This document shows, piece after piece, positions 1-20,451 of a stretch of 23,943 nt of DNA. Numbering within the stretch: the stretch's first letter is position 1; every line of letters starts with the position of its first letter. The stretch comes from a virus. A program made the translations under genes and the position numbers. The stretch spans positions 1 to 23,943 of IMG/VR virus record IMGVR_UViG_3300006805_000162. One strand, written 5' to 3'. Under the pieces are notes generated by a model. It was not told where the DNA came from, did no database searches, and saw only the letters and a list, made by a program, of their open reading frames with translations.

Positions 1-3000
1 CCTGCTAGCACTATCAGCGGTAATGGTAAGTCAGTAAACACGTTTACTATTCCTACTACAGGGACAACTACCCTACTAAGTGCATTGGGAGTCAATGCTC
101 ATACTCAGTTGATAAACACTACTTTAGATTTAGCTGGGTTTGCATTTACCTCACTGGGGGTAATCAATTATAATGGTGGAGTAATACTTAATTTTGGAAA
201 TATTAGTTGTACTACTTTTACGCTCAACGGACCTACTCTAGTACTTGACAGTGGATCTATAAATTGCAGCATTAGTTTTGTAATTAACTCAGGTTCATAT
301 ACATTGGCTGCACTAGGATCGATGGGCCCAACTCCTCTATTCACTCATACATCAGGTGATGTGATATTTGGTAAAGATTATAGCCTCACTACTACTGGTA
401 CTTATACACTGACAAGTGGTACACTAGACTTAGGTGGGTTTACATTAACAACTGGTATCTTTAGTTCATCTAATGCTAACACTCGTGCAATTGCATTTGG
501 TTCGGGTAGTATTGTATTAACAAATACTGTTACTAATATTAATTGTTTGTCAATGGCCGATGCTACTAACTTCTCATATACCGGTATAGGTGGATTTGTT
601 GCCGCTGCAGATATAGTTGGTAGAAGATTTGATTTTGGTCGCACCGCAGGTGGTACTGATTCTAACGCACCCAATTTGTCTATTACTAGTGGTTCTAATG
701 AAATATTGTTTTTTTCAACCAGTTGGTTTAATAAACTTGATTTGACTGGTAGTACTTGTATTGTATCTGGGTCTGCTACTGGTACACTCGTAACATTAAA
801 TCTTAAATCATTAACTCTTGGTGGTGCTGCATCATATGCTAACTTGACTGCAAATATAGTTGACACTGGTACTATTAACGGTAACGGTAAATCAATGTTC
901 GTATTAGTCGTCAACCACATTGGTACTACAACTTTTACTGGATCCTTGACAGTTTCAGGAACATATACTCAAACATCAGGTGATATTGATTTTGGTACAT
1001 ATAATTTAACCTGCGCAGGTGCAATAGCTTACACATCTGGTACATACGCTAATACTGGTATAATTTCTTGCACTACTTTTACTGTTAACGGTAACTTCAC
1101 TCTTACCAACGGTACACTTACTCCTAGCACTAGCTTCATATTAGCGTCAGGTACATTTGAATATGTCGGTGGTACGTTAAGTCCGGCACCGGCATTCATT
1201 CATACTTCAGGCGTCGCAACTTTTTCTAAAGCGTATGCGCTCACTGCTACCGGTACGTATACATTGACTGCTGGATACATAGTTTTAAACGGTTACAACT
1301 TAACTACTGGTATATTCAGTTCAAGTAACGCAAATATTCGTGAAATAAGTTTTGGTCTCAATAATATTATTCTCGCAACTAGTACAGCAGCCGCAGTAAA
1401 CCTTAATATGTCAACTGCTACTAATTTTAGTTGCACTGGTATCGGCGGCTTTAGAGCAGCAGCAGATATAACACGGACTTTTGCTTTTGGTAACACCATT
1501 GGCGGTACAACAGCTAATGCACCTAACTTAACTTTTACTACTGGTGCAGCAGTGCAAACTCTTACCACTGCTAGTTGGTTTAACTCACTAAATTTTGGCA
1601 CTACTTCATTCAATCCAGGTACAACTACATTAAATCTTACTACTCTGTTGTTATCTATTAATGGCACGTACACCGCACTATCACCTAATATGATCGGTAC
1701 TGGTACCATCAATACTGCCGGTAAAACAATCGGATCATTTACTGTTAACACACTTGGTACAGTTACATTAGCTAGCAACATACAATGTGCAAATTACTTC
1801 CAATTAGATGGATTCATTGATTATCAAACCTATACTATAAATAGTACAGGAGCAATGTCCTATACTGGTGGAACGTTGACCGATGCTACTATTACTTGCG
1901 CTAGTGTCACTATCTCAACCGGAGTATTTTCATTCATTAGCGGCGTAATAAATACTCCTACTTTTACTGTAGCATCTGGTACATTTAATTATGTTGGTGG
2001 AGATTTGTCTTCGGTGACAAATTTTACACACACTAGCGGTACTGTTAATATGACTAGTGACTTGACCTTAGCACCAAACAGTACTTACACGTTCACTGCT
2101 GGTACACTAGCAATGAATGATTTTACGTTGTCTACTGGTATATTCAGTTCAACTGGTATCATTGCCCGTTCTATATTATTCGGTACGGGTAATATTATGT
2201 TAACTCACACAACAGCAGCACAAACTGTACTGTCAATGGCAGACGCTACTAATTTCAACTATACCGGGACTGGTGGATTTAGAACAACAGCAGATGTGAC
2301 CAAAACATTTACAGTTGGTAGTACTTTGGGTGCTAACTTTAACAATGCACCTAGCTTGGCAATCACTAGTGGTAGTGCTGTACCAACTATTACAACTAAC
2401 AGTTGGTTCAAAGTATTAGATTTTACCGGCAGTACTTGTACCCCGGCTGCAACTACCGTCAATATAGATACGCTACTGCTTGACGCTACTGGAACTTATA
2501 CTGGATTGATCCCTTGCTTTACTAGAACACAAACTTGGACTAGTCAGCACAGTAAACAGTTAGGTGGTATCGGGGTGAACAGACTTTTCACTACTGTTAC
2601 GCTAGACGGCACTCAAACATATACTGCAACTTCAGTGTGCTCAGTGATAGCAGGTACGTTAGACTTAGGTGGGTATGATTTAACAATTGGGTCATTCATT
2701 AGTTCAGGCACAAGTATTCGTTCAGTTGTGTTTAAAAATACTAATATTATTTTGAACACTACTACTGCGGGCGCAGTGCTGTCAGTAGCTGATGCTACTA
2801 ACTTTAGTTATACTAGTATCAGCGGAGGCTTTGTGTCTGATGCTACTATAGCAAGAACATATCAATTTGGCAGCACCCTCGGTGCTAGCACGGCGAATGC
2901 ACCAAACTTATTAATTAATAGCGGAACAGCAATACCGTCTATTACAACTAATAGTTGGTTTAATACTCTTGACTTCACTGGTAGTAGTTGCACCCCTGCA

Positions 3001-6000
3001 GCAACAGTAGTAAATGTCAATAACCTAACGTTATCTAGTGGCGGCACATTTACTGGTATTTCAGCAACCATGCGGTCTAATGGTATAATCACACCTAATG
3101 GCAAGAGCATAGCAGCATTAGTTATAAATCATACTGATTTAGGAACTACTTCATTAGCGGGGGCACTAACCTGCACTACGCATACATACACTACTGGTAA
3201 CATTGACTTCAATAATTTTAACTTGACCGGAACTGTTGCCATCTATTCTAGCGGCTCATTCTCTAACATTAATGTTTTTGTTTGCACTTCGTTTAATATT
3301 GCTGGAAATTTTGTACTTGATAATGGTATCATCACTCCGAGTTCAGCTATTACCTTAAATTCAGGATCACTTACTTACCTTGGTGGAACAATAAGTCCGG
3401 TAGCTACGTTTAATCATAATGCAGGTACGGTGACACTAGGTAAGAGTTACGCTCTCACCGTGAATGGTACATATACATTAACTGCTGGCTCATTGAATTT
3501 GAATAACTATAATTTGAGTACTGGTATATTCAGTTCGACCGGTATCGTTGCCCGCTCAATTGAATTTGGTACAGGTAATATTACACTGACACATACTACT
3601 GTCGCTACTACTGTTCTGTCAATGGCAGTTGTTACTAACTTTACTACATCAGGTACTGGTGGATTTGTCACTGCGGCATCAATCACCCGCACATTTACTT
3701 TCGGAACCACTGGAGGCTCTGAGACAAATGCAGTGAGCCTAGCAATTACTAGTGGTAGTGCTGTACCAACTATCACTACTAACAGTTGGTTTAATACGTT
3801 AGACTTTACTGGTAGTACCTGCGCACCGATTGCAGCAGCGGCGTACGTGAACACCTTGATATTGGCCACAGGTGGCGATTATACCGGTTTGGTAGCTAGA
3901 TTTACTAGAACACAAACTTGGTCAATGCAATATGGTAAACAACTGGGTGGCATGGGGTTTAACCTGGCTGGCGGTACGCTTACATTAGATGGTACACAAA
4001 CATTCCCTGCTATTTCCAGCTTTTTATTGCAGGCAGGAAAATTAAATTTAGGTGGATATGATTTCTCAATTGGAACATTTAGTGCCAACAGTACCGCCGA
4101 ATTGATTGCATTTGGCACCAACAATATTGTATTGACTACTACTGCTACACTAGTAACAGCTCTTAACTTTGGCAATGCTACCAACTTTACCTGCACTGGC
4201 ACCGGTGGATTTGTAATACCGGCGGATAGGGAAAGAACATTTGTTTTTGGTACTACCGGTGGCACTAGTGCCAACGCTCCTAACTTGACATTTACTGGTT
4301 CAGGTACCGCTATACAAACATTGACTACTGGTAGCTGGTTTAATAAACTTGATTTTGGTACTACTGCATTTTCCCCCAGTGTAACTACATTAAACTTAAA
4401 CGGGCTGACATTATCCAGTGGCGGCGGCAGCTATACTGCTTTGATTGTAAACCTGGTTGGCAGTGGCATTATTATAGGTAATGGCACTGCATCATTAGGC
4501 GGGCTAACTATCAATCATTCGGCCACCACTACACTGGGTGGAAATTTTGCAGTAAACTATGTGTTGAATTGTTCGGTCACGTTAACTAGTGGGACACTGG
4601 CGCTAGCTGGGTATACATTAACAACTGCTGCTTTCATTTCGACTAACACAAACACAAGATCAATTGCGTTTGGTACCGGCAATATTGTTTTATCAGTCCC
4701 TAGTGGATCAGCAGTGCTGAATTTAGACATGGCAGATGCTACTAACTTTACTTGTACTGGTACTGGTGGATTTACTAGTGCAATGTCAGTAGATAGAACA
4801 TTTACATTCGGCAGTACAACAGGCGGCTCTGTAAGTAACGCACCAAACTTATCTATTACTAGCGGTGCTGCAATACCAACAATTACCAGTGGTAGCTGGT
4901 TTAACGCACTTAATTTTACAGGTAGTACTTGTACACCCGCAGCAACTACGGTAAACGTGTCTACATTGACATTAGCTACCGCCGGCACTTACACTGGATT
5001 GACTCCATTATTCACTAGAACACAAACATGGACCAGTCAATACAGTAAAACATTAGCTGGCATTGGTTTTAATTTAATTGATGGAACACTAACACTAGAT
5101 GGAACACAAACTTACAGTGCGACTGGTAGTTTTAGTTTAGTTGCTGGTACATTGAATTTAGGTGGTGTTAATCAAACATTTGGTAGATTTATTTCAAATA
5201 CTACTGACACTCGTTCAATTGCTTTTGGTACTAACAATATTATATTAGCAACTACTACTGCTGCCGTAGTAAACCTTAGTATGCCAACTGCTACTAATTT
5301 TAGCTACACTGGTACCGGTGGATTTACTAGTGCAATGAGTGTAGCTAGAACATTTAATTTTGGATCTACTGCGGGGGGCACATCAGTCAATGCACCTAAC
5401 CTATCATTGACTAGTGGCGCCTCAATACCAACATTCATATCCGGTAGTTGGTTTAATACTTTAAACTTTACCGGTAGTTCTAGCACACCGGATGTGGCTA
5501 CATTGAATCTCAACAGTTTAACACTGCCCGGCACCGGAACATATACCAATCTAACGGTAAATATGGTTGGTAATGGTACTATCAACGGCAATAGTAAAAC
5601 TATTGGAGCACTAACTGTCAACTCTAATAACCCTAACACAACAGAACAATATAAAGTTGTTACTTTCAATAGTTCCGGGTCAATAACTTTCCCTGCATCT
5701 AATGCACCACCTACAGTTGAATATCTAGTAGTTGGCGGGGGAGGCGGGGGAGGCGGCGGCGCCCAGCGTGGTGGCGGAGGTGGCGGTGCCGGCGGATTAG
5801 TAGCGGGAACATCTTCGATAACTAGTGGGATAAGTTACCCGGTTACTGTTGGTAGCGGCGGAGCCGCTACCGTAATAGCCGACAGTGCGGGTGCTGTCGG
5901 AACTGCATCATCTTTTTCTGGAGTTACAGGAAACGGCGGTGGCGGTGGTGGCTATCAGGATATCAACGGCCCAACTACTGGTGCCTGCGGTGGCGGTGGC

Positions 6001-9000
6001 TCGCAGAACGGCAATCAAGCAGGTGCAGCCGGAAATCAAGGATATGGCGGCGGCCAAGGCTTCGATGGCGGCACTCCTGGCCCGTGGCGCGGCGGCGGTG
6101 GCGGCGGAATGGGAGCCATCGGCGACAATGGCAGCGTTGGCGGCGCAGGCGGTGTGGGTCTATTAAACTCTATATCCGGAACATCTAGTTATTACGCCGG
6201 TGGCGGTGGCGGCGGTGCGCAGAGTACTTCGGCCGGCGCTGGCGGAAATGGTGGCGGAGGGGCAGGGGGCTCGGATTCTAATGGCAGCAACGGTACAGCT
6301 AATAAGGGCGGTGGCGGCGGGGGCGGGGGATTCAATGGCGGCACCGGCCTCGGTGGTGGTGGTGGATCGGGCCTAGTCAGTATCCGTTATCTAGCTACTT
6401 ACGCGGATCCAACGTCAACGACTGGATCACCTGCTGTTTATACTATTGCGGTCCCTTTAGTAGCAGTAACACAGACTACATCTGACATAGTAACGTTAAG
6501 TAGCGCATTGTTTGTAACAGGAACTACGACATTAACTTTTGGAAAAATTAATCTAAACAATTTCACACTGTCAACTAGTAGTTTTATTTCAAGTAATACG
6601 AATGTTCGTGCAATTGATTTTGGATCAGGCAACATTGCAATAAGTACGGCCGCCGCAGCCGGAACTGCTGTATTGTCAATGGCAGATGCTACTAACTTTA
6701 CTTGTACTGGTACTGGTGGATTTACTAGTGCATTGAGTGTAGCACAAACATTTAGATTTGGTAGTACAGCAGGTGGCTCATCAACTAAGGCACCTAATTT
6801 ATCTATTTACAGTGGTACAGCTATTCCTACTATCATAACTAATAGTTGGTTTAATACTTTGAATTTTACTGGTAGTTCTAGCACACCTGCAGTGACAACA
6901 GTTAATGTCAATTCTATAATATTAGCAACTGGCGGAACATACACTAATCTAACAGTAAATATGGTTGGTACTGGAACTATTACTAGTAATGGTAAAACTA
7001 TTGCAGCACTAAACATCAATTCTAATAACCCCGACGTACTGGTTCCATATAAAGTTTATACGTTTAATAGTTCCGGGTCAATAACTTTCCCTGCATCTAA
7101 TGCACCACCGACAGTTGAATATTTAGTAGCTGCAGGCGGTGGTGGAGGAGGAGGAGGTATTGGTGCCGGTGGTGGCGGGGGCGGTGGCGGTGCCGGCGGT
7201 CTAATTTTATCAAGTGCTAGTATAGTACCCGGATCTAGTTATTCAATAGCAGTCGGATCAGGTGGCATTGCAGCCACTGGTATTAGCGGAACATCAGGAT
7301 CAATATCTTCATTTCATGATAGTATAGCAATTGGTGGAGGTTACGGCGGGCAGCGAGTCCCAGGTGGTGCAGGCGGATCCGGTGGTGGAGGTGGAGGTGG
7401 CCTAGGCACCCGTATAGGCGGACTCGGTACTGCAGGTCAAGGTAATAACGGTGGTGCAGCAGCAGCAGCCGGCCCGGCAAATGCAGATTCTTCTGGTGGT
7501 GGTGGTGGTGCAGGCTTTGCAGCCGCTGATGCAGTGGCTACTGTCGCTAGTTCTGGCGGCGACGGACTATCTTCTGTTATTGCCGGTACAGAAACATATT
7601 ATGCTGGCGGTGGTGGTGGTGGCGGAAATACTACTCCGGGCGCTGGCGGCAATGGCGGCGGCGGAGCAGGTGGAGGTAACCTCCAAAACGGATCAGCAGG
7701 CACATCTAACACCGGCGGCGGAGGTGGCGGCGGTGGTGGCGGAAATTCTAGCGGTGGCGCAGGCGGCTCGGGTGTAGTAATTATTAGTTACATGTCCGTT
7801 TACGCGGATCCATCATCAACGACTGGATCACCTAATGTTTCTACTATTATAGCTATTCCATTAATAGCATCTTCACCTGACATAGTAACATTAAGTGGTG
7901 CATTAACTGTAACAGGAGTTACCTCATTAACTCTAGGAAAACTGAATCTAAACAATTTTACACTAACAACGGCTGGATTCAGTTCAAGCAACACGAATGT
8001 TCGTGTACTAGCTTTTGGTACAGGTAATATTGCATTAACTAGCACTACCGCATCAACTACTGTATTGTCAATGGATGATGCTACTAACTTCAGTTACACC
8101 GGCACTGGTGGATTTACTAGTGCAATGAGTGTAACTAGAACATTTACTTTTGGTAGTACAGCCGGGGGTTCTATATTCAATGCAATGAATCTATCACTAA
8201 CCAGTGGTGCAAGCACAATAACACTTACCAGTGGTAGTTGGTTCAAAGTATTAGCTGTTACCGGCACTACAAGCACTATAGCAGCAACTACCTTATATGT
8301 AGATACATTGACGTTAGCGACCGGCGGTACATATACCGGATTAACACCTGTATTCACTAGAACACAAATTTGGACAATGCAATTTGCCAAGCAATTAGCT
8401 GGAATAGGTGTAAATAGTGTTGATGCAACTCTTACTCTAGATGGTACACAAACCTATGCAACGACAAGTAAGTTATTACTGACTGCAGGTACATTAGATT
8501 TAGGCGGTAGCAATGTAACATTTGGATCAGTTGTTTCAAGTAATAATAATGCTCGTGCGATTGTATTTGGCTCAAATAACATTACACTAGCAACTACTGT
8601 AGCAGATACTGAAGTTTTATCAATGGCAGATGCTACTAACTTCACTTGTACAGGTACTGGTGGATTTACTGCAGGAATGAATGTGACAAGAACATTTAGT
8701 TTCGGAAGTACAACAGGTGGCTCTGCAACAAGTGCACCTAATTTATCTATAACCTCTGGTGCAAATCTACTAACAATCAGTAATGGTAGTTGGTTTAGGG
8801 TATTAGATTTTACCGGTAGTACGAGTGAGATAATTCCAACTACATTAAATGTAGATACACTAACACTTGCGACCGGTGGCACTTACACTAGTTTGACTTC
8901 GGTATTTACTAGAACACAAACTTGGACTAGTCAATTCAGCAAAGTATTAAGTGGCATTGGAGTGAATAAGGCAGGCGCCACACTAACATTAGACGGTACT

Positions 9001-11049
9001 CAAACATTAGCTGTTATGTCTAATATCGTAGTAAATGCCGGGACACTAAATCTAGCCGGATATGATATATCTTGTTACAATTTTAGCTCTACTGGTACCG
9101 GATCAAGAGTTATTACTGGAGCGAGTGCAATTACAGTAACTAATAATTGGTCTGTTATAAATGGTACGGGGCTCGACACATCCGGTTGTACAATTAATAT
9201 GGTTGCACAGGCGACTAAAACATTTGCAGGCGCTGGGGGAACTTATGGTACACTTGTTCAAAAGAGCAAGTACCCTCTTTTAATAACAGGTTCTAACAGC
9301 TTTGAAAGTGTACAAGTAAGCAGCGACATGGTTGAATTTGTTACTGCTATGATACCTATCGGTGAAATGTCATATACTACACCAGGTACTTATACTTGGA
9401 CAGCACCAGCATACGTAACTAGTGTTAGTGTAGTGACTGTCGGCGGCGGCGGGTCTGGTGGCATAGGTAGTACTGGCGGAGCTATGGGCGGTGGTGGCGG
9501 TGCTCTAGCTTGGAAAAACAATATTTCGGTTACTCCTGGCCAATCATACACCGTAGTTGTCGGTGCGGGCGGTGCTGCACAAGTTAATCAATCTAGCTCA
9601 AACACCGGCTTCTCGGGTGGCGACAGTTACTTTTTAAGTACAACTACTGTCAGAGCCGGTGGCGGCACTGGGGGCAATTGCAGTGGAACTCTAGTACCGG
9701 GCGGCGCTGTTCTGGCCGGAGACGGTGGTGGTGCTGGCGGCCGGGTATCATTCATCTGGGGTGGCGCCGGAGGTGCTGGAGGATACAACGGCAATAGTGG
9801 TACCGGTGGTCAAGGTGGCGATAGCAGCGGACTCAGCGCCGGTGCTGGACAGAATGGTGGCGGTGGTGGCGGAAATGGTACTACTAGCGTTGGCAACGGT
9901 ACCGGTTCTGGTGGTGGTGTAGGAATTATGGGTCTAGGTGCAAATGGCTCAGCAGCTTCGAGCGGCATAACAAGTGCTAGTGGTAGTCCTGGATCAGGTG
10001 GATCCGGAAAATTGTACGGTGGTGGTGGCAATGGCCTCTACACATTCGGCGGCAATTCCGGGCCCGGTGGCGACGGTGCAGTTCGTATTATCTGGGGGTA
10101 CAAAAGATCGTTCCCAGTAGATACACCGGTGACTGTGGATATGATGATAGTCGGTGGTGGTGGTGGTAGCCAAATAGGCGCTGGAGACGCAAATTCTGGT
10201 ATCGGTGGCGGTGGCGGTGGCGGAGTAGTCCTTACAACTTACACTATTCCTCAATCAGTGATAGTATCGCAAACAGCGATAGTAGTGACAGTTGGTACTG
10301 GTGGCTACAATAGTAACGGTTCTAATTCGACAGTAGCTGCGGCCGATAATACTTTTTCACTCACTGCATTAGGCGGTGGCGCAAGCGGCACGTTCCAGGT
10401 GAACGGTACTGCAGGCGGCAGTGGTGGTGGTGGTGGTGGTAGAGACTACCCACCGGGCACAGGCGGCACAGGTTTACAACCAACTAGTGCTAGTGGTGGA
10501 TACGGTAACAACGGCGGCAACTGCCGAACAGGTAATGAAGGTGGAGGCACATCGGCTGGCGGCGGCGGAGGTGGCGCCGGAGCAGTAGGTGGTTACGGTG
10601 TATCTCAACTTGGCGGTGTCGGTGGCGTTGGTATAGCATCTACATTGATTGGTGCTAGCATAGCACTAACGCTAGGTGTAGGAGAGATTTCTGGTAGTTC
10701 TGTTTACTTTGCTGGCGGAGGCGGTGGCATGGCAAACGGTAGCGGTGGCGCAGGTGGTTTAGGTGGCGGGGCAGTGGGTGCATCCAGTACTTATCAAGGC
10801 TCCGGATCTGCAGCCAGTACTCAATCTAATTCGACCGGTGTTAGAAATGGCAAAACAAATACAGGTGGCGGCGCAGGTGGCGCAGCAGCTGGTTACACAT
10901 ATGGCGGAACTGGCGGTTCGGGTATAGTCATCATTCGTCAATTACTGACGACTTCCCCACCGGCCGCTGCAACTGGTGGATGCACTGTAGTATATGATGG
11001 ATTGTATATCTTATACATCTTCAAGAGCTCCGGTACTATAACACTGTAA
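1..11049 (+). CDS. Giant modular beta-repeat / glycine-rich adhesin-like virion protein (5' partial)
   Basis: The frame is open from base 1. The first in-window start candidate is only a TTG at 85, and the codons before it read as normal repeat sequence, so the gene begins upstream and at least 3,682 residues are visible. Eleven copies of a core module carry ATNF-(S/T)-x-TG-x-GGF, then RTF-x-FG, then NAPNL and SWF-(N/K/R)-xLxFTGS. Between them lie beta-strand-like linkers such as FTRTQTW and GTINGNGK. Four glycine-rich domains lie in the second half. Composition is Thr/Ser/Gly/Asn-rich with few charged residues, typical of extended beta-solenoid or fibre proteins. The glycine-rich domains resemble those known from phage tail fibres and adhesins. 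I infer a tail-fibre or surface adhesin role. A host-derived surface protein is less likely given the phage genes that follow. No enzyme motif was recognised. Confidence 0.75.
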   Translation, partial: PASTISGNGKSVNTFTIPTTGTTTLLSALGVNAHTQLINTTLDLAGFAFTSLGVINYNGGVILNFGNISCTTFTLNGPTLVLDSGSINCSISFVINSGSYTLAALGSMGPTPLFTHTSGDVIFGKDYSLTTTGTYTLTSGTLDLGGFTLTTGIFSSSNANTRAIAFGSGSIVLTNTVTNINCLSMADATNFSYTGIGGFVAAADIVGRRFDFGRTAGGTDSNAPNLSITSGSNEILFFSTSWFNKLDLTGSTCIVSGSATGTLVTLNLKSLTLGGAASYANLTANIVDTGTINGNGKSMFVLVVNHIGTTTFTGSLTVSGTYTQTSGDIDFGTYNLTCAGAIAYTSGTYANTGIISCTTFTVNGNFTLTNGTLTPSTSFILASGTFEYVGGTLSPAPAFIHTSGVATFSKAYALTATGTYTLTAGYIVLNGYNLTTGIFSSSNANIREISFGLNNIILATSTAAAVNLNMSTATNFSCTGIGGFRAAADITRTFAFGNTIGGTTANAPNLTFTTGAAVQTLTTASWFNSLNFGTTSFNPGTTTLNLTTLLLSINGTYTALSPNMIGTGTINTAGKTIGSFTVNTLGTVTLASNIQCANYFQLDGFIDYQTYTINSTGAMSYTGGTLTDATITCASVTISTGVFSFISGVINTPTFTVASGTFNYVGGDLSSVTNFTHTSGTVNMTSDLTLAPNSTYTFTAGTLAMNDFTLSTGIFSSTGIIARSILFGTGNIMLTHTTAAQTVLSMADATNFNYTGTGGFRTTADVTKTFTVGSTLGANFNNAPSLAITSGSAVPTITTNSWFKVLDFTGSTCTPAATTVNIDTLLLDATGTYTGLIPCFTRTQTWTSQHSKQLGGIGVNRLFTTVTLDGTQTYTATSVCSVIAGTLDLGGYDLTIGSFISSGTSIRSVVFKNTNIILNTTTAGAVLSVADATNFSYTSISGGFVSDATIARTYQFGSTLGASTANAPNLLINSGTAIPSITTNSWFNTLDFTGSSCTPAATVVNVNNLTLSSGGTFTGISATMRSNGIITPNGKSIAALVINHTDLGTTSLAGALTCTTHTYTTGNIDFNNFNLTGTVAIYSSGSFSNINVFVCTSFNIAGNFVLDNGIITPSSAITLNSGSLTYLGGTISPVATFNHNAGTVTLGKSYALTVNGTYTLTAGSLNLNNYNLSTGIFSSTGIVARSIEFGTGNITLTHTTVATTVLSMAVVTNFTTSGTGGFVTAASITRTFTFGTTGGSETNAVSLAITSGSAVPTITTNSWFNTLDFTGSTCAPIAAAAYVNTLILATGGDYTGLVARFTRTQTWSMQYGKQLGGMGFNLAGGTLTLDGTQTFPAISSFLLQAGKLNLGGYDFSIGTFSANSTAELIAFGTNNIVLTTTATLVTALNFGNATNFTCTGTGGFVIPADRERTFVFGTTGGTSANAPNLTFTGSGTAIQTLTTGSWFNKLDFGTTAFSPSVTTLNLNGLTLSSGGGSYTALIVNLVGSGIIIGNGTASLGGLTINHSATTTLGGNFAVNYVLNCSVTLTSGTLALAGYTLTTAAFISTNTNTRSIAFGTGNIVLSVPSGSAVLNLDMADATNFTCTGTGGFTSAMSVDRTFTFGSTTGGSVSNAPNLSITSGAAIPTITSGSWFNALNFTGSTCTPAATTVNVSTLTLATAGTYTGLTPLFTRTQTWTSQYSKTLAGIGFNLIDGTLTLDGTQTYSATGSFSLVAGTLNLGGVNQTFGRFISNTTDTRSIAFGTNNIILATTTAAVVNLSMPTATNFSYTGTGGFTSAMSVARTFNFGSTAGGTSVNAPNLSLTSGASIPTFISGSWFNTLNFTGSSSTPDVATLNLNSLTLPGTGTYTNLTVNMVGNGTINGNSKTIGALTVNSNNPNTTEQYKVVTFNSSGSITFPASNAPPTVEYLVVGGGGGGGGGAQRGGGGGGAGGLVAGTSSITSGISYPVTVGSGGAATVIADSAGAVGTASSFSGVTGNGGGGGGYQDINGPTTGACGGGGSQNGNQAGAAGNQGYGGGQGFDGGTPGPWRGGGGGGMGAIGDNGSVGGAGGVGLLNSISGTSSYYAGGGGGGAQSTSAGAGGNGGGGAGGSDSNGSNGTANKGGGGGGGGFNGGTGLGGGGGSGLVSIRYLATYADPTSTTGSPAVYTIAVPLVAVTQTTSDIVTLSSALFVTGTTTLTFGKINLNNFTLSTSSFISSNTNVRAIDFGSGNIAISTAAAAGTAVLSMADATNFTCTGTGGFTSALSVAQTFRFGSTAGGSSTKAPNLSIYSGTAIPTIITNSWFNTLNFTGSSSTPAVTTVNVNSIILATGGTYTNLTVNMVGTGTITSNGKTIAALNINSNNPDVLVPYKVYTFNSSGSITFPASNAPPTVEYLVAAGGGGGGGGIGAGGGGGGGGAGGLILSSASIVPGSSYSIAVGSGGIAATGISGTSGSISSFHDSIAIGGGYGGQRVPGGAGGSGGGGGGGLGTRIGGLGTAGQGNNGGAAAAAGPANADSSGGGGGAGFAAADAVATVASSGGDGLSSVIAGTETYYAGGGGGGGNTTPGAGGNGGGGAGGGNLQNGSAGTSNTGGGGGGGGGGNSSGGAGGSGVVIISYMSVYADPSSTTGSPNVSTIIAIPLIASSPDIVTLSGALTVTGVTSLTLGKLNLNNFTLTTAGFSSSNTNVRVLAFGTGNIALTSTTASTTVLSMDDATNFSYTGTGGFTSAMSVTRTFTFGSTAGGSIFNAMNLSLTSGASTITLTSGSWFKVLAVTGTTSTIAATTLYVDTLTLATGGTYTGLTPVFTRTQIWTMQFAKQLAGIGVNSVDATLTLDGTQTYATTSKLLLTAGTLDLGGSNVTFGSVVSSNNNARAIVFGSNNITLATTVADTEVLSMADATNFTCTGTGGFTAGMNVTRTFSFGSTTGGSATSAPNLSITSGANLLTISNGSWFRVLDFTGSTSEIIPTTLNVDTLTLATGGTYTSLTSVFTRTQTWTSQFSKVLSGIGVNKAGATLTLDGTQTLAVMSNIVVNAGTLNLAGYDISCYNFSSTGTGSRVITGASAITVTNNWSVINGTGLDTSGCTINMVAQATKTFAGAGGTYGTLVQKSKYPLLITGSNSFESVQVSSDMVEFVTAMIPIGEMSYTTPGTYTWTAPAYVTSVSVVTVGGGGSGGIGSTGGAMGGGGGALAWKNNISVTPGQSYTVVVGAGGAAQVNQSSSNTGFSGGDSYFLSTTTVRAGGGTGGNCSGTLVPGGAVLAGDGGGAGGRVSFIWGGAGGAGGYNGNSGTGGQGGDSSGLSAGAGQNGGGGGGNGTTSVGNGTGSGGGVGIMGLGANGSAASSGITSASGSPGSGGSGKLYGGGGNGLYTFGGNSGPGGDGAVRIIWGYKRSFPVDTPVTVDMMIVGGGGGSQIGAGDANSGIGGGGGGGVVLTTYTIPQSVIVSQTAIVVTVGTGGYNSNGSNSTVAAADNTFSLTALGGGASGTFQVNGTAGGSGGGGGGRDYPPGTGGTGLQPTSASGGYGNNGGNCRTGNEGGGTSAGGGGGGAGAVGGYGVSQLGGVGGVGIASTLIGASIALTLGVGEISGSSVYFAGGGGGMANGSGGAGGLGGGAVGASSTYQGSGSAASTQSNSTGVRNGKTNTGGGAGGAAAGYTYGGTGGSGIVIIRQLLTTSPPAAATGGCTVVYDGLYILYIFKSSGTITL
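5644..6402 (+). other. Glycine-rich domain 1 of the giant protein
   Basis: This in-frame domain opens with a strand motif (YKVVTFNSSGSITFP), then EYLVVGGGGGG. It continues with long Gly tracts broken by short strands such as YPVTVGSGG and YYAGGGGGG, and closes with SGLVSIRYL. This layout matches the glycine-rich domain family found in phage tail-fibre proteins, in which Gly tracts can form polyglycine-II helices. Local GC content is clearly higher than in the flanking repeats because of the GGN codons. It replaces the ordinary linker between core modules 8 and 9. Confidence 0.75.
7042..7803 (+). other. Glycine-rich domain 2 of the giant protein
   Basis: It has the same architecture as domain 1, with entry strand YKVYTFNSSGSITFP, then EYLVAAGGGGG, internal YYAGGGGGGG and exit SGVVIISYM. 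The entry and exit DNA is nearly identical to that of domain 1 at an offset of about 1,398-1,401 bp, which points to a recent tandem duplication. It lies between core modules 9 and 10. Confidence 0.75.
9370..10101 (+). other. Glycine-rich domain 3 of the giant protein
   Basis: It opens with YTTPGTYTWTAP and SVSVVTVGGGGSGG, contains YTVVVGAGGAA and several Gly tracts, and closes with GAVRIIWGY. The entry strand differs from domains 1 and 2 (TYTWTAP rather than SGSITFP), so this is a separate lineage of the same domain type. It follows directly after the end of the core-module array. Confidence 0.7.
10126..10947 (+). other. Glycine-rich domain 4 of the giant protein
   Basis: It starts with PVTVDMMIVGGGGG, contains VTVGTGGY, VYFAGGGGGM and repeated Gly tracts, and closes with SGIVIIRQLL. 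It directly follows domain 3 with only a short linker, so the protein ends in a tandem pair of glycine-rich domains. These may form the exposed distal part of the fibre (inference). Confidence 0.7.
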
Positions 11050-11074
11050 CTAATATTAATAATGGAATAAGCAC

Positions 11075-11377
11075 ATGACACAATCTACAACTACCCTTAT
11101 TTTTGAAGCAGGGACTACTACTACGATAACCGATACTAATATATCCGGAGTAGATGGAGCTATGCTAACACTGAAAAGTTCTTCACCCGGCACACAGTTC
11201 ACTTTGGCTAAATCTAGCGGCACAGTTACCGCAACCTATACGAAAATACAAGACAGTAACGCTACTGGTGGAGCAGTTTGGGATGCTACTAGTAGAACCA
11301 ATTACAACTTCGGTGACAACACTGGCTGGATCTTTACGGTGGTACCGGTGACCGGTGAATTCTTTTCTTTCTTCTGA
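11075..11377 (+). CDS. Small beta-rich protein resembling a C-terminal beta domain
   Basis: This 100-residue protein starts 25 bases after the giant gene stops, in a different frame. It is Thr/Ser-rich with regular beta-strand patterns: LIFEAGTTTTITDTNISG, then MLTLKSSSPGTQFTLAKSSG, then YTKIQDSNATGG, and it ends with an NNF-type turn and DNTGWIF. That strand order is familiar to me as a C-terminal domain of large bacterial and phage beta-repeat proteins, which makes a free-standing copy notable. It has no signal peptide or enzyme motif. It may be a small partner of the giant fibre, or a C-terminal domain separated from it by an earlier stop codon. The Shine-Dalgarno signal is weak, so translation coupled to the upstream stop is possible. 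Confidence 0.6.
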   Translation: MTQSTTTLIFEAGTTTTITDTNISGVDGAMLTLKSSSPGTQFTLAKSSGTVTATYTKIQDSNATGGAVWDATSRTNYNFGDNTGWIFTVVPVTGEFFSFF

Positions 11378-11405
11378 TTGTAATTTAAAAACTACGGAAG
11401 CATTC

Positions 11406-11413
11406 TATAGATA
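11406..11413 (+). promoter_or_regulatory. Possible degenerate T4-type late promoter octamer
   Basis: TATAGATA differs from the T4 late consensus TATAAATA at one position. It lies in the 48-base gap between 11377 and 11426, the only sizeable gap before the nrd operon. The following ATG is just 12 bases downstream, which would leave almost no leader, so the call is weak. Confidence 0.2.
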
Positions 11414-11425
11414 AGTATATGTCTA

Positions 11426-11860
11426 ATGAATGTATTTCAAACTAACTATGAAGCCAGACTGCGCAGCTGGTGTGAGTTAAGATCAACCCTAGAAAACAGC
11501 GATACTAAAACCAAATCTATAGCAATTGACCACTGGTGGCAGAAAGCTCCTTTGGTCAATCACCATTTACACTTACAAGATTCTATGACATGGCCGGGAC
11601 CCTGGGAACTTCTATCCGAAAATACCTACTGTACGGTTGCAAGAGCACTAGGAATGTGTTATACTCTACTTCTAGTGGGAGTAGACGATATACAATTAGT
11701 TGAGGCGACTGACATGCAAGGCGATGATATGGTAATAGTCCTAGTTGACCGCGCTAAGTATGTACTTAATTACTGGCCCAATTCAGTATTAAATAGCAGT
11801 TCAACAGAATTTACAATCAAGCGACACATTGATGTGTCCGCAATCCAATTAAAATTATAA
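11426..11860 (+). CDS. Phage protein of unknown function
   Basis: This gene encodes 144 residues and I do not recognise the family. It is a soluble-looking protein rich in aromatic residues, with a distinctive stretch around residues 37-62 (DHWWQKAPLVNHHLHL, then MTWPGPWELL), three Cys residues and a hydrophobic segment near residues 73-85 (CYTLLLVGVDD). There is no signal peptide and no clear membrane helix. It ends 10 bases before nrdA on the same strand and is probably co-transcribed with it. The conserved-looking Trp/Pro motif suggests a real fold rather than a chance frame. The start ATG at 11426 lacks a good Shine-Dalgarno. An ATG at 11419 is out of frame. Confidence 0.7.
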   Translation: MNVFQTNYEARLRSWCELRSTLENSDTKTKSIAIDHWWQKAPLVNHHLHLQDSMTWPGPWELLSENTYCTVARALGMCYTLLLVGVDDIQLVEATDMQGDDMVIVLVDRAKYVLNYWPNSVLNSSSTEFTIKRHIDVSAIQLKL

Positions 11861-11870
11861 CAGGCAAAAT

Positions 11871-14195
11871 ATGAATATAAATGTGATCAAGAGAGATGGA
11901 ACTAAAGAGCCACTGATGTTAGAAAAGTGGCAAGCTCAGGTCGCTAAAATATGTGTTGGGATAGCTGATGTTAGCCCATCAATGGTAGAAATTAAGTCAC
12001 AACTTCACTTTTATGACAGTATCTCAACCCGTCAAATTGACGAGATTACCCTACGTGCTATCGTAGACTTGATTGATGTAGAGAATAATCCAGATGTAGG
12101 ACATACTAACTATCAGTATGTAGCTGGCAAGCAACGACTAAGCATGTTACGTAAAGATGTATACGGTGACTATGAAGTACCTAGCTTGTACTCTATCATT
12201 AAGACTAATGTAGAGACAGGTCTATACACTAATGAACTACTAGAATGGTACAGTGAAGAAGACTGGAACAAGATGGATTCATTCTTAGACCATTCTAAGG
12301 ACGAGCAATATTCTTATGCCGCCATTGAACAATTGATAGAGAAGTACTTGGTTAAGAACCGTAGCACAAAACAAACATATGAAACTCCACAAATTAGATA
12401 TATGGTCGCGTCCGCTACTATATTTCACAAAGAAGAACCGAATGCAGCGAGAATGCGTTACATAAAGGAATATTATAATGCTGCTAGTGATGGTCTGTTT
12501 ACTCTTGCTACACCTGTGCTTGCTGGTCTTGGCACTCCGACAAAACAATTTAGTAGTTGTGTGCTTATCAGGAGCGATGATGATCTGGATAGTATTTTTG
12601 CTAGTGGCGAAATGATGGCAAAGTATGCTAGCAAACGTGCTGGCATTGGCTTAGAGATTGGAAGACTACGCCCCTTAGGTAGTCCTATTCGTGGCGGAGA
12701 AATTATGCATACAGGTATGATCCCCTTCTTAAAGAAATGGTTTGGGGATCTGCGTTCGTGCAGTCAAGGAGGTATTCGTAATGCAAGTGCTACTGTATTT
12801 TATCCTATCTGGCATCATCAGTTTGATGACCTAATCGTTCTTAAGAACTATCAAGGAACAGAAGAAACTCGTGTGCGTCACATGGACTATGGAGTTGTAC
12901 TATCTGCTTTCTTCTGGCGTAGATTTAAGAACAAAGAAGATATCACTTTTTTCGACCCCAATGAAGTCCCCGACCTCTATCAAGCGTTCTATTCTAATAC
13001 GGAACTCTTTGAAGAACTGTATGTCAAGTACGAGAAACAAAAGAACCTTCGCAAGAAAACAATGAGTGCCGAAGAGGTATTCAAAAGTGGAATACTAAAA
13101 GAACGAACAGATACAGGACGTATCTACCTAGTGTTCATTGACAATGTAATGAATCAAGGTCCATTCGATCCTGAGTATCATACAATCTACCAGAGTAATC
13201 TATGCTGTGAAATTCTATTACCAACGAAATCGTTTAAGAGACTTGATGACGAAGAGGGAAGAATTGCGCTCTGCACACTTGGCAGTATTAACTGGGGTGC
13301 ATTTCGCAATCCCGAAGATATGCGTAGGGCTTGTCGCATTCTGCATCGTAGTCTTAATAACATTTTGGATTACCAAGACTTCCTTTCTATCCAATCTAAA
13401 CTAAGCAATGATGAGATTCGCCCATTAGGTATCGGTATCACTAACTTAGCATACTGGCATGCAAAGCGCAGTTTGAAGTATGGTGACAAAGATGCACTAG
13501 CTGAACTTAAAACATGGATGGAACATCAGACATTCTATCTCACAGAGATGAGTGTTGAGTTAGCTAAAGAGCGTGGTAAGTGTTTGGGTAGTGACCATAC
13601 TCGTTATGGTAAGGGTGTCTTCCCGTGGGAGCTACGTGCTAAGGGTGTTAACGAACTAACTGACTTTACCCCTGAACTAGACTGGGAAACATTACGGGCA
13701 GATATGATTACATACGGTGTCCGTAATGCTACTAATAGTGCTGTAGCTCCTGTAGAATCTAGCAGTGTTGCTATCAACTCAACTAACGGCATTGAAATGC
13801 CAATGAGTTTGATTAGTGTTAAAGAAAGCAAAGCAGGATCATTTGTTCAAGTTGTACCAGAGTATACCAATGCTAAGGTACGCAAGAACTATCAATTGAT
13901 GTGGGAACAGAAAGATTGTGATGGTTATCTAAAGACAGCCGCAGTGATTGCAGCTTATGTTGACCAGAGTATCAGTACTAATACATTCTATAACCCTGCT
14001 CACTTTCCTGAAAGAAAAGTCCCCACAACGTTGATTGCTAAGAACTTGATGCAATCTCATATATGGGGATTGAAGACATTCTACTATAGCTTGATTAACA
14101 AAGCCGGTAGTAAACAAGTAGCAGAAGATGCCCCAACAATGCTAGAACCAATTGATTTTGATAACGAAGAAGACTGTGAAAGCTGCAAATTATGA
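11871..14195 (+). CDS. nrdA: Class Ia ribonucleoside-diphosphate reductase, alpha subunit
   Basis: NrdA reduces ribonucleoside diphosphates to deoxy forms together with the NrdB radical subunit, feeding phage DNA synthesis. The protein has 774 residues, close to E. coli NrdA (761), and aligns along its full length. An N-terminal ATP-cone (about residues 1-95, starting INVIKRDG) suggests allosteric activity control. Catalytic residues by comparison with E. coli are the redox pair C230 and C468, N443, the thiyl-radical C445 and E447 in the loop QSNLCCEI, the radical-transfer pair Y738 and Y739 (KTFYYS), and the C-terminal shuttle cysteines C769 and C772 (CESCKL). The shuttle pair is spaced CxxC, against a wider gap in E. 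coli. C446 beside the catalytic Cys is a small oddity. A weak AGG lies ahead of the ATG, and the stop overlaps nrdB by 4 bases (ATGA). Confidence 0.97.
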   Translation: MNINVIKRDGTKEPLMLEKWQAQVAKICVGIADVSPSMVEIKSQLHFYDSISTRQIDEITLRAIVDLIDVENNPDVGHTNYQYVAGKQRLSMLRKDVYGDYEVPSLYSIIKTNVETGLYTNELLEWYSEEDWNKMDSFLDHSKDEQYSYAAIEQLIEKYLVKNRSTKQTYETPQIRYMVASATIFHKEEPNAARMRYIKEYYNAASDGLFTLATPVLAGLGTPTKQFSSCVLIRSDDDLDSIFASGEMMAKYASKRAGIGLEIGRLRPLGSPIRGGEIMHTGMIPFLKKWFGDLRSCSQGGIRNASATVFYPIWHHQFDDLIVLKNYQGTEETRVRHMDYGVVLSAFFWRRFKNKEDITFFDPNEVPDLYQAFYSNTELFEELYVKYEKQKNLRKKTMSAEEVFKSGILKERTDTGRIYLVFIDNVMNQGPFDPEYHTIYQSNLCCEILLPTKSFKRLDDEEGRIALCTLGSINWGAFRNPEDMRRACRILHRSLNNILDYQDFLSIQSKLSNDEIRPLGIGITNLAYWHAKRSLKYGDKDALAELKTWMEHQTFYLTEMSVELAKERGKCLGSDHTRYGKGVFPWELRAKGVNELTDFTPELDWETLRADMITYGVRNATNSAVAPVESSSVAINSTNGIEMPMSLISVKESKAGSFVQVVPEYTNAKVRKNYQLMWEQKDCDGYLKTAAVIAAYVDQSISTNTFYNPAHFPERKVPTTLIAKNLMQSHIWGLKTFYYSLINKAGSKQVAEDAPTMLEPIDFDNEEDCESCKL

Positions 14196-15292
14196 GTAAA
14201 GAACAATATAACCTAACAACAAAAACAGACTATCTCAACCGTAAGATGTTTCTAGACCCAGAGGGTCCTGTAACTATTCAACGATTTGAGGAAGTCAAGT
14301 ACAAAAAGATCGTAGACTTTGAACAAACAGCACGTGGCTTCTTTTGGGTTCCGGAAGAAGTTAGTTTAACTAAAGATGCAACTGACTTCAAGGAAGCTAG
14401 TGATGCCGTTAAGCATATCTTTACTAGCAACCTATTGCGTCAGACTGCACTAGATAGCTTACAGGGTAGAGCACCAAGTCAAGTGTTTACCCCTGTTGTA
14501 TCATTGCCTGAACTTGAAGCATTGATTTACAACTGGAGCTTCTTTGAGACTAACATTCATAGTCGTAGCTATAGTCACATCATCCGTAACATCTATAATG
14601 TACCTAAAGATGTGTTCAACACTATCCACGATACACAAGAGATTGTTGACATGGCTAGTAGTGTTGGTAACTACTATGAAGCATTACATAATGTTAACTG
14701 TCAGAAGCAGTTGGGCATGCCTGTACTAGAAAAAGATCATATCAAAGCTATCTGGATGGCACTACATGCAAGTTATGCACTAGAAGCATTTAGATTCATG
14801 GTATCATTCGCTACAAGTTTAGCAATGGTTGAGAACAAAATCTTTATTGGTAACGGTAATATCATTAGCTTGATTCTACAAGATGAACTATTACACAAGG
14901 GTTGGACAGCATATCTTATCAATCAAGTAATCAAAGAAGATAGTCGCTTTGCCGCTATTAAACTAGAGTGTGAAGCAGAAGTCTATCAACTGTACATGGA
15001 TGTTATCCGTGAAGAAAAAGACTGGGCCAAGTATCTATTCAAGTTCGGTCCAGTGATTGGATTGAATGCAAACATTCTAAATGACTTTGTAGACTATACA
15101 GCAGTGGGTGCATTGAAAGAGATTGGTATCAAGTATCAAGCTATTGCTCCTAAATCTACTCCTATCCCGTGGTTCAATAAGCACGTTGATACAAGCAAGA
15201 AGCAAACTGCACTGCAAGAAAACGAATCAACAAACTATGTTATTGGTGTAATGAGTGACTCATTAGACTATGACACACTACCTAATTTTTAA
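14192..15292 (+). CDS. nrdB: Class Ia ribonucleoside-diphosphate reductase, beta subunit
   Basis: NrdB houses the di-iron centre and tyrosyl radical that activates NrdA. The 366 residues match the family length. By comparison with E. coli, the ligands are D88 (ALDSLQGR), E119 and H123, E198 (ALEAFRF), and E232 with H235 (DELLH). The radical Tyr is Y127 (HSRSYSHI). The C-terminal tail contains Y349, the counterpart of E. coli Y356, and ends in an acidic, NrdA-docking type peptide (DYDTLPNF). The first Glu-His ligand pair reads ETNIH, one residue longer than the usual ExxH of E. coli (ETIH). The bases are unambiguous and the frame continues normally on both sides. The start overlaps the nrdA stop as ATGA, so translation is probably coupled, which suits equal subunit supply. 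Confidence 0.96.
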   Translation: MSKEQYNLTTKTDYLNRKMFLDPEGPVTIQRFEEVKYKKIVDFEQTARGFFWVPEEVSLTKDATDFKEASDAVKHIFTSNLLRQTALDSLQGRAPSQVFTPVVSLPELEALIYNWSFFETNIHSRSYSHIIRNIYNVPKDVFNTIHDTQEIVDMASSVGNYYEALHNVNCQKQLGMPVLEKDHIKAIWMALHASYALEAFRFMVSFATSLAMVENKIFIGNGNIISLILQDELLHKGWTAYLINQVIKEDSRFAAIKLECEAEVYQLYMDVIREEKDWAKYLFKFGPVIGLNANILNDFVDYTAVGALKEIGIKYQAIAPKSTPIPWFNKHVDTSKKQTALQENESTNYVIGVMSDSLDYDTLPNF

Positions 15293-15303
15293 CAGGAACA
15301 AAA

Positions 15304-15537
15304 ATGACAGCAATCGTATGGAGTAAGGACGCCTGTCCTTACTGTGTTCAGGCTAAAGCCCTGCTCACACAGAAAGGTATCGCATTTGAAGAACGTAACA
15401 TCATGCACGGCACCTGGACTAAAGAACAACTACTAGAAGCAGTACCAACTGCACGAACATTACCACAAATCTTCTTGGGTGAAGAATATGTGGGTGGGTT
15501 CACTGAACTCAGAACTAAACTAACAGAAAGCAAATAA
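15304..15537 (+). CDS. Glutaredoxin
   Basis: This 77-residue thioredoxin-fold protein carries the dithiol active site CPYC at residues 11-14, the cis-proline motif TLPQIF (P54) and the glutathione-binding GGF-type turn at residues 64-66. All three are glutaredoxin signatures. It most likely returns electrons to the C-terminal cysteines of NrdA, the role played by NrdC in phage T4, and its position 11 bases after nrdB supports this. An AGGA Shine-Dalgarno lies 8-11 bases ahead of the ATG. The stop overlaps the next start by one base (TAATG). An NrdH-type redoxin is the alternative, but the length, the GGF turn and CPYC fit both. Confidence 0.93.
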   Translation: MTAIVWSKDACPYCVQAKALLTQKGIAFEERNIMHGTWTKEQLLEAVPTARTLPQIFLGEEYVGGFTELRTKLTESK

Positions 15538-15836
15538 TGGAACAAGGTAAAACATATACATTCAAATTAAACTCAGGCGAGGAACTTATTGCTAAAGTAG
15601 TTGATATCTTCACAGAAGAACATACTATTAAGATTAGCGATCCAGTATCAATCGCCCCCGCACAGAACGGCATGCAAATGATTCCTAGCATGTTTACCGC
15701 AGAACCCGGTTCTTCAGTTACACTAAATACTAATAGCGTTGCTATGTACTCTGAGACTGAGGACAGTATCAAAATGAAGTATATTGAAGCAACAACGGGT
15801 ATCAAAGTACCCGAGAAAAAAATATTCTTAGGATAA
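15537..15836 (+). CDS. Small Sm-like beta-barrel phage protein
   Basis: This gene encodes 99 residues. It opens with a strand-turn-strand (YTFKLNSGEELIAKVVDI), followed by the charged turn TEEHTIKI and DPVSIAPAQNGMQMIP. This resembles the Sm/LSm-like small barrel proteins common in marine T4-like phages, including the PVSIAP segment. A conserved-looking tail follows (VAMYSETEDSIKMKYIEATTG). Function is unknown: an RNA-binding or assembly role is only a fold-based guess. It has no Cys, signal peptide or membrane segment. It overlaps the glutaredoxin stop by one base and ends one base before the PAAR gene, so it is translated as part of a tight chain. Confidence 0.65.
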   Translation: MEQGKTYTFKLNSGEELIAKVVDIFTEEHTIKISDPVSIAPAQNGMQMIPSMFTAEPGSSVTLNTNSVAMYSETEDSIKMKYIEATTGIKVPEKKIFLG

Positions 15837-15837
15837 T

Positions 15838-16119
15838 ATGTCAGCATTAAGTCGTGTAGGAGATCAGAATCAAGCCGGAGGTGCAATCAAGCGCGGAGCT
15901 GATTCAGTGTTTGCAAATGGAATAGCTGTAGGCTTGCACGTTAGCGGCATAACTCCACACGCACCTTGGGGCAGACCGCATCCACCTCATGAAGCAGCAA
16001 CTACAACTGATGGTAGTCCTACTGTATTTTGTGAGGGTGTTCCTGTACTCAGAGTGGGTTCAGGTAACAGTTGCGGACATAGTATCAGTCAAGGAAGCCC
16101 GGATGTGTTCGTACCATGA
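15838..16119 (+). CDS. PAAR-motif protein, tail spike tip
   Basis: This 93-residue protein has the PAAR layout. An early segment (SRVGDQNQAGGAI) is followed by two Gly/Pro-rich halves carrying His and Cys residues suited to binding one metal ion at the tip: H34, H41, H48, H51, C65, C79 and H81. The second half reads GSPTVFCEGVPVLRVG and ends in SQGSPDVFV. PAAR proteins form the sharp cone capping the central spike of contractile tails and type VI secretion systems. In T4 this is gp5.4. An AGGA ends six bases before the ATG. The stop overlaps the next gene by 4 bases (ATGA), so the spike tip is made together with the large virion-type protein downstream. Confidence 0.88.
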   Translation: MSALSRVGDQNQAGGAIKRGADSVFANGIAVGLHVSGITPHAPWGRPHPPHEAATTTDGSPTVFCEGVPVLRVGSGNSCGHSISQGSPDVFVP

Positions 16120-18356: not shown

Positions 18357-18366
18357 GCCAAAACAA

Positions 18367-18396
18367 TTGACGTTCAACGTTGTATAGTGTTATACT
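18367..18396 (+). promoter_or_regulatory. Sigma70-type promoter for the SleB-family hydrolase gene
   Basis: A -35 box TTGACG (18367-18372) and a -10 box TATACT (18391-18396) are separated by 18 bases. Each differs from consensus at one position. Transcription would begin near 18403, just ahead of the Shine-Dalgarno at 18406. The spacer contains the perfect palindrome CAACGTTG (18375-18382), within ACGTTCAACGT, a possible operator site (inference). Confidence 0.7.
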
Positions 18397-18405
18397 ATGC
18401 ATAAG

Positions 18406-18412
18406 AAAGGAG
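18406..18412 (+). promoter_or_regulatory. Strong Shine-Dalgarno that sets the hydrolase start
   Basis: AAAGGAG lies 5 bases ahead of the ATG at 18418. The in-frame ATG at 18397 overlaps the edge of the -10 box and would lie upstream of the predicted transcript, so 18418 is the better start. Confidence 0.8.
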
Positions 18413-18417
18413 TATAT

Positions 18418-19017
18418 ATGAAAAATATAGCCTCAATCACCGCTAAAGTACTAGCAATAAGTATAGCGGTATACACAATGATAACAGTAGTGATTGATAT
18501 GACTACTGTGCAAGAAGAACCGGAATTCGTAGTAGAAGCTAGGCCAGTTGATAGTAAACAACTACTATGTATGGCAGAGAATATATATTACGAAGCAGGC
18601 AGCGAATCAATTGCAGGTAAAGCAGCAGTAGCAAGAGTAGTAATGAACAGAGTTAGTCATGGCTTTGCTAGTACGCCCTGCAATGTAATACATCAAATGA
18701 CAATGATAACAAAGATTGATGAGAACACCTTAGATTCATATAGAGTTAGAATGTGTCAGTTTAGTTGGGTTTGCGAGGGTAAGAAGAAAGTAAATGTCAA
18801 TGACCCTAAGTATGTGCAAGCACTAGATGTTGCATACCAAGTACTGGCATACGATGCATATCAAGAAGTATTACCCCGTACTGCATTGTTCTTTCATAAT
18901 CTAACAGTTGATCCGTTCTGGCCCTACAAGCAAGTAGCACGAATAGGTAATCATATATTCTATAGCAAACAGAAAGTAAAATATGTTGAGAAGAAGCCCA
19001 CAGCGGGGAACATTTAG
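18418..19017 (+). CDS. Membrane-anchored SleB-family cell-wall hydrolase (endolysin candidate)
   Basis: From the ATG at 18418 this encodes 199 residues. A hydrophobic segment at about residues 5-27 looks like a signal-anchor, which would place the enzyme on the periplasmic side. The catalytic domain (about 47-190) matches the SleB / Hydrolase_2 family. It has LCMAENIYYEAGSE (E54 probable catalytic Glu), GKAAVARVVMNRV, CQFSWVCEG (residues 113-121), YVQALDVAYQVL, and a C-terminal FFHNLTVDPFW and GNHIFY. Family members cut peptidoglycan glycan strands. In a phage this suggests host lysis or wall opening, and the anchor suggests a signal-anchor-release type endolysin (inference). It has its own promoter and a strong ribosome site, so it is regulated apart from the structural operon. 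Four Cys residues (51, 88, 113, 119) could form disulfides outside the membrane. Confidence 0.88.
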   Translation: MKNIASITAKVLAISIAVYTMITVVIDMTTVQEEPEFVVEARPVDSKQLLCMAENIYYEAGSESIAGKAAVARVVMNRVSHGFASTPCNVIHQMTMITKIDENTLDSYRVRMCQFSWVCEGKKKVNVNDPKYVQALDVAYQVLAYDAYQEVLPRTALFFHNLTVDPFWPYKQVARIGNHIFYSKQKVKYVEKKPTAGNI

Positions 19018-19599: not shown

Positions 19600-20451
19600 A
19601 TGGAAGATACACCCAGCACAATTCAAGCAACGCTTGATTCACTAAAAGATTCACTACTAGTAACTAGCTCAAGGATAGGAGACTTTCTAGTATACAAGAA
19701 TGATATTGTCATCAGCAAAGCGATTGACTTGTACGGTGAGTACTGTCAAGCAGAAGTTGATATTCTATCAGAGTATCTAGGAGAAACAAGCCAGTACATT
19801 GATATCGGGACCAATATTGGATATCATCTAGTCGCAGTACACAAAGCAACTAACTGTAATGTATTAGGATTTGAGCCTAACCCAAAGCACTTTGCAGTAG
19901 CATCATACAACAGCAAAGACTACCCTAAGATTCAAGTTGTCAATGCAGGCGCAAGCGATAAGAGTTCAGAGTTTACATTAAAAGACTTTGACCCTACAAA
20001 ATCTACCAACTACGGTGACATTCATATCACTGAGGATGAAGGTATCACCGTCAAGATGATTCCATTAGATACAGTAGGACTTAGCTCATGTCATGTTATC
20101 AAACTAGATGTAGAAGGGCACGAGTATGAAGCAATTCAAGGATGTACCAAGACTATAAGTAAGTTTCGTCCTGTAGTGTTCTATGAAGCTATGGAATGGG
20201 ATGTATGGACTAAAGTAAATGAGTTCTTAACTGATAGACAGTATACTCAATACTGGGTGGCATGTAGAACAGATCCTATTGCAGATACGTTTAAAGTCGC
20301 TGACGAGAATCCATTCGGTTCAAGTACTGTAGCAAATATCTTGTCAGTACCTAATGAAAAACCACAGCCCAACAACTTAGTTGAAGTTACCCCGGGTGAG
20401 GGCTTTAGCACATGCTTTGAACGATATAAAAGACTTAGAATTCTATTCTAA
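19600..20451 (+). CDS. FkbM-type SAM-dependent methyltransferase
   Basis: This 283-residue protein has the FkbM (Methyltransf_21) pattern. The SAM-binding motif I is YIDIGTNIGYH (about residues 66-76). The acidic end of strand 2 is FEPNP (91-95), and the family hallmark is KLDVEGHEYEAIQG (about 168-181), followed by RPVVFYEAMEWD. FkbM enzymes methylate hydroxyl groups, often on sugars or natural products. Phage copies are thought to modify glycans or surface structures, but the target here is unknown. The start ATG has only a weak Shine-Dalgarno (GAAAG). The gene converges on the next one and the two stop codons overlap, with no room for a terminator between them. The last 60 or so residues lie beyond the usual domain and could contribute to substrate choice. 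Confidence 0.88.
   Translation: MEDTPSTIQATLDSLKDSLLVTSSRIGDFLVYKNDIVISKAIDLYGEYCQAEVDILSEYLGETSQYIDIGTNIGYHLVAVHKATNCNVLGFEPNPKHFAVASYNSKDYPKIQVVNAGASDKSSEFTLKDFDPTKSTNYGDIHITEDEGITVKMIPLDTVGLSSCHVIKLDVEGHEYEAIQGCTKTISKFRPVVFYEAMEWDVWTKVNEFLTDRQYTQYWVACRTDPIADTFKVADENPFGSSTVANILSVPNEKPQPNNLVEVTPGEGFSTCFERYKRLRILF

Follow-up and report, generated by a model that had tools for sequence, protein, structure and literature searches.

The window analysed here, a whole IMG/VR record of 23,943 bp, carries most of a giant gene that we read, with a probability of roughly 0.7, as encoding a solenoid fibre attached to the tail or baseplate of a T4-type freshwater phage, with heads that would bind the host multivalently. 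The 3' two thirds of this gene occupy positions 1..11049 (+), and its start lies outside the window. This ORF of 3,682 aa is stop-free from base 1; 200 shuffled versions of its bases had open runs of up to 223 aa, and in none of the remaining five frames of the window did one extend beyond 188 aa. In a scan of virus contigs the window was found to be contained in a sister contig of 98,387 bp (10 mismatches over 21,046 bases), where the full gene, with an ATG at L027:8996 as its start and its end at 25354, measures 16,359 bp and encodes 5,452 aa, the window holding residues 1771-5452. The sister contig supplies the N-terminal domain of ~210 aa, the RYWVGGTGTW.. region and eight more modules. 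Seven of the 10 differences between the two contigs fall inside the giant gene and five of these seven change an amino acid, numbers too small to interpret. An initial annotation of the window had described a frame already open at base 1, a gene exceeding 11 kb and a low-charge, Thr/Gly-rich chain, and had proposed that the upstream contig be obtained to find the true start. The sister contig provides that start and the predicted length, and the composition agrees as well: Lys, Arg, Asp and Glu make up 192 of the 3,682 residues (5.2%), and Gly, Thr and Ser predominate.

The shaft of the protein is built from repeated modules. Eleven SWF-anchored copies were found in the window, spaced by 183-187, 276-284 or 464-466 residues and, where aligned, 48-65% identical to a reference copy. 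A profile search added a twelfth, degenerate module at residues 3007-3138 to the eleven core modules and four glycine-rich domains that had been counted initially and that were confirmed here; by the same profile, the full protein in the sister contig carries 20. Eight core modules, all on the plus strand as are the others, occupy 397..5565 (397-858, 1252-1692, 2080-2520, 2632-3072, 3466-3903, 4015-4455, 4570-5013 and 5125-5565), some of them spaced by extra solenoid blocks of ~95 aa. Another lies between the first two heads (6520..6963), and the solenoid ends with three more at 7915-8355, 8467-8907 and, degenerate, 9019-9414. Structure prediction, also suggested at the outset, was run with AlphaFold2 on two adjacent modules (window 3988-5148; 86 aligned segments) and gave a model of beta strands throughout, with a pLDDT of 95.3 and a pTM of 0.92. 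We read the module as a predicted beta-solenoid unit. Foldseek matched the model to no solved structure in the PDB at E <0.001, and the weak PDB matches (E >0.2) were to beta-helix proteins, TibA, HK620 tailspike, Ag43 and pertactin among them. A library of viral models returned six significant matches, all of them unnamed proteins of uncultured Caudovirales. Sequence searches of the PDB yielded a single chance-level match for the modules (an L-shaped tail-fibre assembly chain, E 0.2) and implausible matches only for the N-terminal domain, and neither modules nor heads gave a tblastn match in cultured phages.

The four glycine-rich heads are the part of the protein that can be tied to known fibres. 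Pfam Gly_rich_2 (PF21722) matches the window protein in four stretches (E 3.7e-46; 158.4 bits against a curated cut-off of 24.3). Two of these are inserted in mid-shaft between modules, at 5674..6390 (+; residues 1892-2130, the best stretch) and 7072..7791 (+), and the other two come after the final solenoid segment, at approximately 9475..10170 (+) and 10186..10950 (+). A moderately confident model of the domain (pLDDT 77, pTM 0.81) was matched by Foldseek to the fibre of cyanophage Pam3 (7ypx) with E 3.7e-6 and to the tail tip of Bxb1 (9d93) with E 2.5e-5, both at a probability of 1.00 and with moderate TM-scores of 0.43-0.51. A PDB sequence search with the head gave no match. The study of Pam3 assigns host-receptor recognition to these fibre domains (PMC9608196). 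In gp38, a T-even tail-fibre adhesin, PGII tips bind OmpC and a related glycine lattice makes the contact (PMC12892980); structures of gp38 (6F45, PGII sandwich, S16/PP01) were absent among the 36 Foldseek matches of the head, and its likeness to gp38 would at most be one of working mode. In the longest relative of the protein (locus L031), one head splits a module into profile positions 2-82 and 73-147, and the site before its C-terminal cap holds a second glycine-rich head together with LamG-like sequence, a call made by eye through similarity to a neighbouring structural protein (g009, see below). Since heads sit between modules, inside a module and at the pre-cap site in these two proteins, solenoid junctions tolerate insertions.

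Directly downstream of the giant gene, a 100-aa ORF (11075..11377, +) is, by homology, the family's C-terminal solenoid cap detached as a gene of its own: a cap profile matched the sister-contig copy with E 4.8e-34. The cap is fused to the solenoid in some relatives (L069, L054, L050 and L040) and forms a separate ORF of ~100 aa directly after the giant gene in the window phage and in L031, L059, L044 and L043. In all five detached-cap loci the break comes after a TGSN.F motif, and in four of them heads lie between motif and break, L043 having none. A head or lectin is inserted at this same pre-cap site, with a separate cap, in L027, L031, L059 and L044. From its position and homology we infer that the cap, translated separately, closes or tips the C-terminal solenoid. 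The short tail after the fourth head ends in ..YIFKSSGTITL, as do the C-termini of some relatives. We considered, and rejected, a truncated C-terminus of the giant protein, given the similar final motif of relatives and the detached cap encoded by the following gene.

The surroundings of the gene are those of a phage. Downstream of the cap follow a conserved 144-aa neighbour (11426..11860, +), found in the same order in L031, and nrdA and nrdB (11871..15292, +), which encode a class Ia ribonucleotide reductase in a phage context. Just after nrdB, a 77-aa ORF (g019; 15304-15537, +) with a CPYC motif is glutaredoxin-like in appearance. The initial annotation had named a PAAR protein, a virion-type protein and a hydrolase as neighbours. 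The first and the last were recovered as a PAAR-motif protein of the tail spike tip type (15838..16119, +; PF05488 over cut-off) and a cell wall hydrolase or endolysin-type protein (18397..19017, +; PF07486, E 7.4e-18; phrog_938); "virion-type" is unproven for the 746-aa protein between them (16116-18356), which has no Pfam or PHROGs match and relatives in 25 virus loci, the sister contig among them. Near the hydrolase lies an FkbM-type methyltransferase (19600-20451, +; PF05050, E 3.7e-17). Elsewhere on the sister contig (G001, forward bases 6624-18815; L034), ~12 kb hold 42 predicted tRNA genes for nearly all amino acids. The nrdA gene is closest to those of Xanthomonas phage X1 and Stenotrophomonas phage Moby (53-59%), and the nrdA/nrdB pair is T4-type. 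Two contigs, one with a gene 76% identical to that for the 746-aa protein and the other with a 2,409-aa member of the fibre family, carry the T4-type capsid gene Gp23; the 98-kb sister contig lacks the capsid gene of the window phage itself. From the nrdA relatives, the structural cassette described below and Gp23 on related contigs, the phage, a freshwater-type virus, is most likely T4-type. Its phage origin is well supported by the IMG/VR record, the T4-type nrdA/nrdB, the virion-structural cassette with its S-CAM1-like neighbour, and the presence of the module in virus contigs with no confirmed GTDB counterpart.

The giant gene is the last in a series of large ORFs on the sister contig, the others being of 840, 456, 1,014, 479, 1,542, 1,272, 1,875, 1,024 and 964 aa. 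Several of these match virion structural, tail-fibre or baseplate PHROGs, which puts the giant gene in a tail and virion structural cassette. The 1,875-aa product (g009; L037:13822-19446 (-) = L027:1-2073) carries repeated LamG/concanavalin A-like lectin domains and a glycine-rich domain, and the 1,542-aa product (g007; L038:3398-8023 (-)) is a glycine-rich structural protein with matches to phrog_2295 and to tail-fibre-assembly and tail-protein PHROGs. No dedicated tail-fibre chaperone was identified beside the giant gene. Less probable, in our judgement, is a virion appendage other than the primary receptor-binding fibre, such as a whisker, a neck or head fibre or an extension of the baseplate wedge, which would attach weakly and reversibly to particles, mucus or glycans. 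Cyanophages do have giant gp7-like baseplate virion proteins (that of S-IOM18 has 6,387 aa), the 964-aa upstream neighbour is 48.5% identical to an S-CAM1 virion structural protein that adjoins the head-completion genes gp13-gp15, and LamG lectin-like sequence takes up the head insertion site in L031. However, what the heads resemble is a tail fibre and a tail tip rather than head fibres, the genes beside the giant gene match tail-fibre and baseplate families, and, although its neighbour g009 matches a baseplate-wedge PHROG, the giant protein itself has no such match in residues 1-2000 or 1771-5452. Much less probable still is a protein that is not part of the virion and that the infected cell displays or secretes, for instance for superinfection block or aggregation. 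The resemblance of large low-charge solenoids to bacterial adhesins would fit it, as the weak Foldseek matches to TibA, Ag43 and pertactin (E >0.2) illustrate, but the gene sits among virion structural genes, Gly_rich_2 was the only significant Pfam match in the C-terminal 3,682 aa, with no translocator or anchor family, and the modules were confirmed in no GTDB contig by a non-exhaustive search with two short peptide patterns. The view taken in the initial annotation, a virion adhesin rather than a cellular surface protein, thus stands as the best reading, which the Pam3-fibre-like heads and the position of the related P19250A gene after protein J and a tail fibre support; on this reading the giant protein would be part of the virion and bind a receptor.

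The window protein is an extreme member of a common, unstudied family. Alignment of the module recovered 69 distinct virus loci, with 33 distinct complete ORFs of 442-7,357 aa and 1-29 modules (median 1,029 aa), nearly all of which have an RYWVGG-like start. The window protein and that of L031 (7,357 aa) are its extremes. Against the family median, the initial description of a gene very large for a phage fibre was right; phage virion proteins of similar size are known, however. Eight modules of the full protein, A08-A15, are collinear with B16-B23 of L031, the paired copy being the best match for A14-A15 and the rest of the pairing. Downstream of the L031 gene, the cap ORF, a 149-aa ORF, nrdA and nrdB follow in the order seen in the window. 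Over the paired modules pN/pS was 0.37, with synonymous sites near saturation. Together with the collinearity, this value marks the array as old and conserved under purifying selection; neither recent expansion of the repeats nor faulty assembly accounts for it. Repeats can yield chimeras in metagenomic assembly, yet we rejected as scarcely credible the idea that the great length is an artefact of joined repeats, on the grounds that the DNA of different modules matches at best with ~72-77% identity over 500-870 bases and is thus resolvable by an assembler, that two contigs agree (10 mismatches/21 kb) with the frame intact over 16 kb, and that the divergent contig has the same module order.

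Altogether, these data are best explained by a fibre in which the N-terminal domain would dock to the virion, ~20 modules of ~184 aa are predicted to stack into one long beta-solenoid shaft, and four Pam3-fibre-like heads, two in mid-shaft and two at the C-terminal tip, would bind receptors or surface glycans multivalently, as their fold and the literature suggest. The family may evolve through gain and loss of modules and through head insertion at a small number of permissive sites, the heads being either glycine-rich or LamG lectin-like. More tentatively, and at somewhat less than even odds, the protein could form a single-chain fibre of ~80-100 nm, a length estimated from 20-25 residues per 0.48-nm coil, with heads along the shaft and at the tip, a cap from a separate small gene, and a length and head set tuned by module gain and head insertion. 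If true, such a single-chain, multi-head fibre would be a multivalent host-contact device. The solenoid fibre family, whose members have 1 to 29 modules and heads, receptor-binding or lectin-like, that can be exchanged, was seen in 69 virus loci and confirmed in no bacterial or archaeal contig searched. It offers a concrete system for studying how phages lengthen fibres, arrange multiple heads on a single chain and use a separate gene to cap a giant solenoid.

No description of this solenoid family was found in the literature on giant phage fibres, and the closest known systems each share a part of it. Two BFVD models from uncultured Caudovirales (A0A6J5QXQ6 and A0A6J5KUB8) are like the window module in fold and sequence (E 1.6e-19, 34% identity, TMq 0.77); they are unstudied, with models of 1,257 and 811 aa, whereas the window protein is 4-7x longer and has four heads. 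The N-terminal region alone led to two cultured phages: the 'PE family protein' (925 aa) of Methylophilaceae phage P19250A and an ORF of Limnohabitans phage DC31 share the RYWVGGTGTW.. region at 38-45% identity. The likeness is N-terminal only, the core-module profile finding no match in either. The P19250A protein has about one sixth of the length of the giant protein, and its gene immediately follows those for host-specificity protein J and a tail fibre. In DC31 (L108 7998-12120), the RYWVGG N-terminus belongs to an unannotated frame of at least 1,374 codons that runs to the record edge, where the deposited annotation has short opposite-strand ORFs only. The tail fibre gp24 of Pam3 (TNF-like plus glycine-rich head; PDB 7ypx) shares the head, with the profile over cut-off and a Foldseek probability of 1.00, but as a fibre it is short (~97 A) and trimeric, and its shaft is helical, whereas the window protein has four heads on one giant solenoid chain. 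Finally, the gp7-like virion structural protein of S-IOM18, encoded by a 19,164-bp gene, is likewise a giant virion protein of a T4-type phage; the window protein differs in having no match to baseplate-wedge PHROGs. The window gene is therefore not the largest phage gene, and the L031 protein is longer than that of S-IOM18.
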